From positions 1 through 64,000 of the forward strand of contig CACMYE010000002.1 of assembly GCA_902617825.1 (NCBI GenBank): a stretch of 64,000 nt of DNA. Reading direction: 5' to 3'. Position 1 is the first letter of the stretch; each line of letters opens with the position of its first letter. The notes beneath the pieces were generated by a model. It was not told the DNA's origin and made no database searches. It saw nothing but the letters and a program-made list of their open reading frames with translations. Source of the DNA: an uncultured Pelagibacteraceae bacterium (GTDB lineage Bacteria > Pseudomonadota > Alphaproteobacteria > Pelagibacterales > Pelagibacteraceae). The translations under genes and the position numbers were made by a program. This document shows positions 3,986-6,517 of this stretch, piece after piece.

Positions 3986-4068
3986 AAGTTTTAGTGGAAT
4001 TAGTCGTTATTAGTTTTATTAGACTATTTTAAGGTTGAATTAAATAATTATAATTATAAAACCTAGCC

Positions 4069-4110
4069 CACGGAGAGATGGCTGAGCGGTTGAAAGCACC
4101 GGTCTTGAAA
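4069..4110 (+). repeat. attL-like 42-bp direct repeat: 5' half of tRNA-Ser(UGA) (tRNA fragment from 4072)
   Basis: cacggagagatggctgagcggttgaaagcaccggtcttgaaa identical to 6425-6466, then diverges. Confidence 0.95.
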
Positions 4111-4227
4111 TACCAAGGATCCACTACTCACCTTACGACGTTTCACATACTTATCAAGCCATTACTGATTTTTTTAATTTTAGCTTTTACGAAAAACCCA
4201 TCTTTATTGACTTGCCTAACCTATCAA

Positions 4228-4246
4228 ACTTGTACGCTACTTGTAC
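4228..4246. repeat. Paired direct repeat ACTTGTAC-gct-ACTTGTAC near left end of element
   Basis: Two exact 8-mers at 11-bp period; same architecture at 6332-6350. Confidence 0.85.
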
Positions 4247-4252
4247 GGAGAT

Positions 4253-4765
4253 TTATAATTTCTTACAAATATAATCTCCAAATGCGCCTAAATTTTCGTA
4301 AGCACATTTATACAACTTATTATCTTTTGGGGGGTCGTTATAAACTATATCATTTGAACCAACGGCAAATGATGTTGAAAAATTTAGAGTTGGAGAATCA
4401 ATATTAATGCCACAGAGTTTTTTTGTTCCTAAATTTTCATTAGTCATAGGCTTATCAGACTTTTGATTATTATTTACGCAATCCCAGTGTGAATTATATA
4501 AACTTAGATCCTGATCAAAATAATCTTTGTTATAATATGATATTTTTCTAAATGAGATTCTTATTTCTTTTTCATTTTTAATAAGAACGCAATCTATTGC
4601 CTCACCATAACCAGCATGATCTATATTTCTTTGTTTTTGTCTAATTAATCTAACATCTTTATCTTTTTTTAAAACATCTTCTATTAATTTACTAATCAAA
4701 TCTTTATCATTAAGATGAAATTTTTTATCTGGATCTGGCACTAAAAATTCAGGAAAAAATTTCAT
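4253..4765 (-). CDS. Hypothetical protein (island ORF 4)
   Basis: 170-aa ORF, 4-nt overlap with upstream ORF; no family recognised. Confidence 0.7.
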   Translation of the reverse strand: MKFFPEFLVPDPDKKFHLNDKDLISKLIEDVLKKDKDVRLIRQKQRNIDHAGYGEAIDCVLIKNEKEIRISFRKISYYNKDYFDQDLSLYNSHWDCVNNNQKSDKPMTNENLGTKKLCGINIDSPTLNFSTSFAVGSNDIVYNDPPKDNKLYKCAYENLGAFGDYICKKL

Positions 4766-5061
4766 TTAATTACCTTTATATTTTTTTGTCTTCTTCTCTT
4801 GATCAACTCATCTACCTGAATCTTAATAAAGAGTTTTCTGCCCATTTGCACAGCTTTAGCCTGTACTTCGCTTTTATGTTTAGTAGGTAATCTTTTTAAA
4901 GGTTTGCCTGGTGGATCATCATTAGCTAGTACATTATTAGCTGAATTAATCATACTTTGATCAACTATTCTTAATACTTCTTTCTTTTCATCAAAAGATA
5001 AGTTTTCAAGTATCTTAATTATACCGTTTCTTTCCTCTTGAGCTCTAAAGTATTTATTCAT
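4762..5061 (-). CDS. Hypothetical protein, small basic (island ORF 3)
   Basis: 99-aa ORF overlapping both neighbours; Lys/Arg-rich C-terminus (DELIKRRRQKNIKVIK). Confidence 0.7.
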   Translation of the reverse strand: MNKYFRAQEERNGIIKILENLSFDEKKEVLRIVDQSMINSANNVLANDDPPGKPLKRLPTKHKSEVQAKAVQMGRKLFIKIQVDELIKRRRQKNIKVIK

Positions 5062-5272
5062 CTCTAAACTCTTCTATAAGATCATTAAGAATTAAGATTG
5101 AATGATTTTCTTGATTATGTTGATCAATATTAGCAACTGCTTTTTCGAATTGTAATTTTAATTCTTCAAATTCTTTATCGTTCATATTCTTAATAATTTT
5201 TTTAATTCTTTTTTCATTACCTGGTGTGTCAGGATCACTAAATTCTTTTACAATTTCTTTAAATTTATTCAT
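5054..5272 (-). CDS. Hypothetical protein, small acidic (island ORF 2)
   Basis: 72-aa ORF, 3 nt from 345-aa ORF and overlapping the next. Confidence 0.65.
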   Translation of the reverse strand: MNKFKEIVKEFSDPDTPGNEKRIKKIIKNMNDKEFEELKLQFEKAVANIDQHNQENHSILILNDLIEEFRDE

Positions 5273-5275
5273 TTA

Positions 5276-6313
5276 TTATTTCTTAAAATAAAGATCTCTA
5301 AAGCCTTTTGTAGGTTTTTTGGAACGAAAATCATCTATTAATGACCAAATACTTGTTAGATAATCTTTTTCTTTATAATCATCGCTTTCTTCAATATTTT
5401 TTTCTAAAAGATTAATTACATCTAAATATTCAATTCTACTCATTCCTGTCGCCATATCTTTAAAATCTTTCTCATTTTCTGATTTACCAGAATTGAATAT
5501 TACTTGCATCATCTTAAGCGTTGAAGAAGCTCTTAATAGAAAAAATTTAATCCATTCACCTTTTGTAAATTTCAAAACATTCTTTGATTTTTTTGATGCT
5601 TTATTAATATAATTTTCATGAAGTCTAATACTGTATGCTTCATTCATGTAAAGATAACTAAGTCTAAGAGCTACATCTTTTCGTAATCCTGTGCCTGGAA
5701 ATTTTTCAAAATGACCAGGTAATAATTCTAATAATGCTGTTGTATTAGATTTGCCAGGACCTGCAACTTGGTTCATATATCCCGTGTTTTCTAAATTGAA
5801 ATAATGCCCTGCTCCAATAAATACTTTTGAGATAGACTCTGCTGATTTGTAATTTTTAACAAACCAATTTGAAATATTTTTTATGTCAGCCTTGGTTAAT
5901 TCAGGTAAATGAGCATTTATAATCTTTTTATTAAAATCATATTTTTTATTATTAACTTCAATTATGCAGGGTTGATAACCTATGCTTTTGTCTTTGGAAT
6001 ATCTTTTAGCAGTATCAAAAAAAGCATTTATTAAAAATTCAACTGTTTCATCATCTACTTTCTTTTTTACATTATTAATTTTATAATTTTCAAAACAAGC
6101 TCCTAAAAAATAAACTAGATATGTGAGCAGTGATTGTTGGTAAGGAATATGCCCTTTAGATATATGGTCTAATAATTTTTTTAGTTCTTTTTTTTCAAAT
6201 TTTCTACCCTCTTCTTTAATGTTAGTTTGTATTATTACAGCTGAATGATATGACCAAATGATTGTATTCAATGACCATGTACAAGCTCTCTCTACAATTG
6301 GATCTAATTTCAT
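5276..6313 (-). CDS. Hypothetical protein (island ORF 1, 345 aa)
   Basis: Longest island ORF, first gene of the operon; no recombinase (R..HxxR..Y or serine resolvase) or replication motif recognised. Confidence 0.75.
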   Translation of the reverse strand: MKLDPIVERACTWSLNTIIWSYHSAVIIQTNIKEEGRKFEKKELKKLLDHISKGHIPYQQSLLTYLVYFLGACFENYKINNVKKKVDDETVEFLINAFFDTAKRYSKDKSIGYQPCIIEVNNKKYDFNKKIINAHLPELTKADIKNISNWFVKNYKSAESISKVFIGAGHYFNLENTGYMNQVAGPGKSNTTALLELLPGHFEKFPGTGLRKDVALRLSYLYMNEAYSIRLHENYINKASKKSKNVLKFTKGEWIKFFLLRASSTLKMMQVIFNSGKSENEKDFKDMATGMSRIEYLDVINLLEKNIEESDDYKEKDYLTSIWSLIDDFRSKKPTKGFRDLYFKK

Positions 6314-6331
6314 ATAGGATATTATAGGATA

Positions 6332-6350
6332 ACTTGTACAAGACTTGTAC
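6332..6350. repeat. Paired direct repeat ACTTGTAC-aag-ACTTGTAC near right end of element, upstream of island operon
   Basis: Two exact 8-mers, 11-bp period; lies just upstream of a minus-strand TATAAT and the 345-aa ORF start at 6313. Confidence 0.85.
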
Positions 6351-6424
6351 GCCAGTCAAAATTCTTAAAAAAAAATCGTCTGTTTTTTAGTTGAATTTTG
6401 ATTTTATACTTATAAAACCATGCT

Positions 6425-6466
6425 CACGGAGAGATGGCTGAGCGGTTGAAAGCACCGGTCTTGAAA
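6425..6466 (+). repeat. attR-like 42-bp direct repeat within intact tRNA-Ser locus
   Basis: Identical to 4069-4110. Confidence 0.95.
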
Positions 6467-6517
6467 ACCGGCAAAGGGGCAACTCTTTCCTGGGTTCGAA
6501 TCCCAGTCTCTCCGCCA
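6428..6517 (+). tRNA. tRNA-Ser(UGA)
   Basis: GGAGAGA/TCTCTCC acceptor stem, CCGGT-CTTGAAA-ACCGG anticodon arm (TGA), long variable arm, GGTTCGAATCC T-arm, encoded CCA. Confidence 0.96.

Follow-up and report, generated by a model that had tools for sequence, protein, structure and literature searches.

A complete tRNA-Ser(UGA) gene and a displaced copy of its 5' half enclose a small insertion with four minus-strand ORFs in the stretch of DNA analysed here. This 64,000-nt stretch (hereafter the window) comprises positions 1-64,000 of contig CACMYE010000002.1 (assembly GCA_902617825.1) from an uncultured Pelagibacteraceae bacterium with a Pelagibacter-like SAR11 genome. SAR11 bacteria rank among the ocean's most numerous cells, and to our knowledge few mobile elements have been recognised in them.

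An insertion at tRNA-Ser(UGA)

A preliminary description of the sequence had noted a perfect 42-bp repeat, with copies at 4069-4110 and 6425-6466, and had read the right copy as part of the complete gene and the left copy as a dead half. Both points were confirmed, as ARAGORN finds one complete tRNA-Ser(UGA) and calls no tRNA at the left copy. The repeat forms the last 42 nt of a longer duplication of 87 nt (84% identical), the extra part of which is sequence upstream of the tRNA. The features of the locus are as follows.

4024-4071, plus strand: the tRNA's original upstream (promoter) region, which stayed behind on insertion
4072-4110, plus strand: displaced tRNA-Ser 5' half; the core ends at 4110, in the anticodon loop
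4111-6466, no strand: inserted element, 2356 bp between core ends, absent from L093
4228-4247, plus strand: left pair of 11-bp-spaced repeats, ACTTGTACGCTACTTGTACG, +118 from the core end
4253-4765, minus strand: 170-aa ORF, cargo, no family, not found in sister elements
4762-5061, minus strand: 99-aa ORF, common to sister elements (94% identity in G046, 68% in G019, 74% in G440)
5054-5272, minus strand: 72-aa ORF, cargo, no family in Pfam or PHROGs
5276-6313, minus strand: 345-aa ORF, common to sister elements (98% in G046, 89% in G019, 88% in G440), no recognisable family
6317-6329, plus strand: GGA-n-GGA right-end motif, GGATATTATAGGA
6332-6350, plus strand: right pair of 11-bp-spaced repeats, ACTTGTACAAGACTTGTAC, 134 before the core end
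6380-6427, plus strand: upstream (promoter) region supplied by the element
6428-6517, plus strand: restored tRNA-Ser(UGA), with 6428-6466 derived from the element and the remainder from the host (ARAGORN, repeat and flank comparison)

When the window flanks were joined across the insertion, all 2045 nt aligned with L093 (G068) at 93.3%, revealing an empty site, as the check proposed in the preliminary description had called for. Further, more distant tRNA-Ser loci of the same genus also align across the empty junction. Upstream of the left copy, 48 nt match many element-free sites at 94%, L093 included, whereas the equivalent region before the right copy is 88-94% identical to several other sites and 71% identical to its left counterpart. 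This right-hand region is nearer to other occupied sites, with a few apparently unoccupied sites (e.g. L067) also being of the right-copy type. Since the left promoter region is of host type and the right one resembles those of occupied sites, a promoter region and a tRNA 5' half must have come in with the element. The earlier reading of an integrated element that restores the 5' half of its tRNA target is thus borne out. The locus also shows the two marks of an additive genomic-island cassette at a tRNA gene, as part of the tRNA is directly repeated and a relative has the site unoccupied.

Paired repeats at the element ends

Inside each end of the window element lies a pair of 11-bp-spaced repeats (ACTTGTAC; hereafter arm pairs), the left at 118 bp from its core end and the right at 134 bp. 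These are the only two spots in the 64-kb window at which a run of at least eight bases is repeated at 11-bp spacing, a coincidence with the element ends that, together with the empty site, excludes chance.

In related genomes, tRNA-Leu(UAA) and tRNA-Ser(UGA) are occupied by dozens of elements with the same geometry. For tRNA-Leu we compiled 53 elements lying between successive copies of the tRNA-Leu 5' half; the loci were chosen for having half copies, and the set contains near-copies (L195, L215, L216) and one recombinase element present as both L200 and L235. Arm pairs are present on both sides in 29 of these 53 elements, against a background in which 0.95% of random 85-nt windows contain such a pair. 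Counted from the core, the left pair begins at 125-131 nt, while the right one lies, in nearly all cases, 138-141 nt before the next core; the corresponding distances in tRNA-Ser elements are 115-118 and 134-136. Left and right arms agree at 9.55 of 11 positions within an element and at 6.58 of 11 between elements, and none of 5000 permutations reached the observed within-element sum. The ACTTGTAC arm is also found in cassettes at tRNA-Leu. The remaining 24 tRNA-Leu elements do not have a pair on each side, so that other routes of integration, or decay, exist.

An element of constant length (2177 bp) occupies tRNA-Leu in four genomes (L190, L191, L203, L218); it has no arm pairs and carries two minus-strand ORFs of about 406 and 269-279 aa. 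In L219, an interval of 267 bp (4244-4511) separates a tRNA-Leu half copy from the complete tRNA and contains one arm pair and no ORF; it is possibly a deletion product.

Genes of the element and its sister elements

The four minus-strand ORFs (345, 72, 99 and 170 aa) were found as first described, and searches of Pfam and PHROGs upheld the statement that none is a recognisable recombinase; neither database gave a convincing family for any of them. At a threshold of 1e-5, PADLOC returned nothing for the 345-aa protein. Sequence searches of the PDB with its profile, and with that of the recombinase described below, returned no matches, and AlphaFold models of the two proteins had mean pLDDT values of 42 and 46, respectively. 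Neither the 345-aa nor the 99-aa protein had relatives in the viral contigs searched. The genes of the window element (4253-6313) run antiparallel to the tRNA, unlike those of most tRNA-Leu cassettes listed.

Among the first 200 genomes, the 345-aa protein was recovered at convincing scores in three others; a later profile search found it in 7 of 399 genomes, the window genome counted. The sister element of G046 sits in tRNA-Leu(UAA), where the tRNA-Leu 5' half and promoter are duplicated. It encodes homologues of both the 345-aa and the 99-aa protein with other ORFs between them, and its arm sequence differs from that of the window element. G019 and G440 hold further sister elements, which encode MORN-repeat-like proteins. 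In all, three different arm sequences accompany the 345-aa and 99-aa genes, and the two genes look like a shared backbone with the remaining ORFs as exchangeable cargo. More distant homologues of the 345-aa protein (about 25-28%) are encoded in G101, G352 and G214 near Hsp70-like genes, at loci with neither arm pairs nor a tRNA. At L024, L262 and L263, distant homologues lie near Hsp70-like and peptidase-like genes and show no sign of a cassette.

The preliminary description had allowed for a recombinase unrecognised among the ORFs, and the 345-aa protein, as the product of the largest ORF and conserved in four cassettes, would be the candidate. Its near identity in an element that occupies a different tRNA and has a different arm sequence argues against this reading, as do its lack of any recombinase-family match and its absence from nearly all other cassettes of the same geometry. 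We regard it as extremely improbable that this protein catalyses integration.

Integrase-less cassettes

All but one of 50 tRNA-Leu elements (49/50) are without the integrase. Just before the right arm pair, integrase-less cassettes carry the motif GGA-n(6-8)-GGA, which is present in 27 of 29 at tRNA-Leu and in all five at tRNA-Ser, the window element included; it occurs in none of eight recombinase elements and in 1.3% of random 40-nt windows. The integrase-less cassettes form a class separate from the recombinase elements, with a right-end motif of their own. No exact match to this motif was found in viral contigs.

A stricter exact pattern, composed of the end motif plus the first arm bases, gave one control hit and, across 297 genomes of the order, matched 57 (57 of 198 from the window's genus, 0 of 99 from other genera). 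Thirty loci were drawn from its matches. Sixteen adjoin an intact tRNA gene (tRNA-Leu or tRNA-Ser), always at the same distance, five adjoin a tRNA-Leu half copy, and nine have no tRNA match. Among these nine, five have a 75-aa ORF that starts 45-46 nt after the motif, three (L268, L275, L281) resemble the 5' end of the same gene and then break off, and one (L271) ends 38 nt after the motif. At two places examined at length with BLAST, the 5' end of the 75-aa gene is present in two and three copies. This protein-coding gene, of about 75 aa, looks to be a third site of attachment. The copies lie at 5581 and 7795 in L294 and at 5552, 6808 and 9262 in L295 (reverse-complement coordinates), with cassettes between them.

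Tandem arrays of such elements are seen in relatives; like the arm pairs and the end motif, they had not figured in the preliminary description.

Elements encoding a tyrosine recombinase

Rare elements of 7.7-9 kb use the same sites with the same geometry as the cassettes and encode a divergent tyrosine recombinase, along with a primase-like protein. Viral contigs that combine a tRNA-Leu half with arm pairs encode this protein of 515-549 aa, for which two of three sequences scanned matched PF00589, one above the cut-off. Five residues (R373, K400, R485, H508, Y518) are invariant in six recombinases and correspond by position and motif to the catalytic R, K, R, H and Y. A genome scan located the recombinase on three Pelagibacteraceae single-cell contigs, and several recombinase elements lie within the viral collection. 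L131, L150 and L153 have exact terminal repeats of 99, 123 and 99 nt, respectively, by which they are circular contigs; each has one att core.

Arm sequences are common to cassettes and recombinase elements at tRNA-Leu. The arms of the tRNA-Leu recombinase element L237 recur in cassettes L022, L196, L204 and L217, and those of L234, also in tRNA-Leu, recur in L098 and L199. One recombinase element (L249) occupies tRNA-Ser(UGA), the site used in the window, with arms ACTTGAGAC; over the first 45 nt beyond the core, it is identical to L109, an integrase-less cassette. Among the recombinase elements examined, none had exact ACTTGTAC arms. Thirty-three viral contigs match the ACTTGTAC pair pattern, with no large recombinase in the stretches examined, and no such recombinase was seen in the window's own assembly, which is only 75% complete.

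A preliminary suggestion that the element would need an integrase from elsewhere is favoured, since a tyrosine recombinase gene is present in related elements that share its site and geometry. The window element could instead be a decayed one that had a recombinase of its own, lost it by deletion and is now stuck. The shared use of sites by recombinase elements, the broken state of some recombinase genes and the lack of a recombinase in the window genome are compatible with such decay. The integrase-less elements, however, far outnumber the recombinase elements, retain matched arms at fixed distances and possess a right-end motif that recombinase elements lack, and the 345-aa and 99-aa genes accompany several arm sequences rather than one. 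We consider decay unlikely.

A T7-like pelagiphage integrase that uses the same tRNA 5' half might also move the element, which would then be a phage satellite. Viral contigs with a 282-297-aa integrase beside a tRNA-Leu 5' half do exist, and relatives of this integrase are annotated as Pelagibacter phage integrases. However, those contigs have no 11-bp arm pairs at the att site, while the large-recombinase elements have them at the distances found in cassettes. The label of satellite, raised in the preliminary description, finds no support in the window element, in which no phage-type gene was found and whose end motif had no exact match in viral contigs; we judge this alternative very unlikely. 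The 282-297-aa integrase-like ORF beside a tRNA-Leu 5' half, without nearby arm pairs, occurs in L132, L135, L138, L139 (partial), L142-L144, L149, L151 and L155.

The start of the recombinase gene contains the left arm sites in L237, L234, L235, L150 and L131. Across nine sequences, recombinases from elements with different arms diverge most in the N-terminal 150 residues. Those of L234 and L235 are 61% identical there and 95-96% elsewhere, and those of L131 and L150 are 75% and 93-96% identical, respectively; L131 and L156, which share an arm, are 95% identical in the N-terminal part. A comparison of nine sequences is suggestive only, and by it the N-terminal part may vary with the arm sequence. 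Pfam gave no arm-binding domain in this region, so its assignment to arm recognition depends on a structure model of low confidence and on where the variable stretch lies.

Proposed mechanism

From these sequence comparisons, we consider it likely that the window element is a non-autonomous, tRNA-anchored cassette moved in trans by such recombinases, with the repeat pairs serving as arm-type binding sites. Between them, the two element ends would make up the full attachment site of a tyrosine recombinase, in which the core lies within the tRNA-Ser(UGA) anticodon loop and has 11-bp-spaced arm-type pairs on either side. The enzyme would be supplied in trans by the rare autonomous elements that have the same sites and geometry. 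Integration would replace the promoter and tRNA 5' half with those of the cassette, leaving the tRNA intact and able to take repeated insertions, which would give rise to tandem arrays. The arm sequence would probably act as a compatibility tag read by the N-terminal domain of the recombinase. A recombinase matching the window's own arms may be presumed to exist, and the element may be mobile at present.

Because the ends are laid out like those of recombinase elements and similar cassettes occur in many related genomes, SAR11 seems to use a common borrowed-enzyme system to swap genes. A fuller model, to which we give even chances, is a trans-mobilised system of this SAR11 genus with at least three attachment sites and variable 11-bp arm tags, in which recombinases would switch partners by exchanging the N-terminal arm-binding domain, whose gene has arm sites within its start.

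Relation to known elements

Tycheposons reportedly were described in Prochlorococcus by Hackl et al. in 2023. By description, they are likewise tRNA-anchored elements with variable cargo in a streamlined marine host. Like them, the window element is inserted in a tRNA gene, part of which is repeated; a tyrosine recombinase, which tycheposons carry themselves, is found here only in the related larger elements. At 2.4 kb, the window element is also below the range of 4-200 kb given for tycheposons in PMC10872708.

PMC7771536 and PMC10872708 describe additive flexible genomic islands with tRNA-fragment direct repeats in Actinomarinales and Methylophilaceae, respectively, so that tRNA-anchored cassettes are known from other marine and freshwater lineages; the passages concerned mention neither matching recombinase elements nor arm pairs or a common end motif. 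CALINs and other hitcher elements (reviewed in PMC11389934) resemble the window cassette in having no integrase and, as proposed for that cassette, in depending on one in trans. The repeated site seen in the window, however, is the 5' half of a tRNA, accompanied by arm pairs on both sides, where integron cassettes have attC. A picocyanobacterial integrase located upstream of tRNA-Phe or tRNA-Cys (PMC10187409) is by description likewise a divergent tyrosine integrase beside a tRNA with variable cargo, although its hosts and tRNAs differ from those of the SAR11 elements. Phage satellites (PICI, VEIME) are marked by phage-type or packaging genes or by presence on viral contigs, none of which was found for the window element.

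While tRNA-anchored cassettes and tycheposon-like elements are known, the variant with arm pairs and an end motif is apparently new. The literature searched gave no account of arm pairs, end motif or recombinase relation in SAR11; it did not include the main tycheposon and VEIME papers, and novelty is provisional to that extent.

Cassette cargo

If the proposed mechanism is correct, much of the gene turnover of SAR11 at these sites would proceed through small cassettes relying on a few recombinase-bearing elements. The exact pattern, present in 57 of 198 same-genus genomes, offers a signature for counting such cassettes. The match that seems to exist between arm sequence and N-terminal domain may be useful for studying site choice by integrases. 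Cassette cargo includes restriction-modification, surface and protease genes, for whose movement in streamlined genomes the mechanism would provide a testable route. Short pseudopilin-like ORFs (FTLIELLVVVAIIGILAAVG), many of them in tandem, were observed in L098 (4042-9348), L099 (3354-5935) and L295 (6181).
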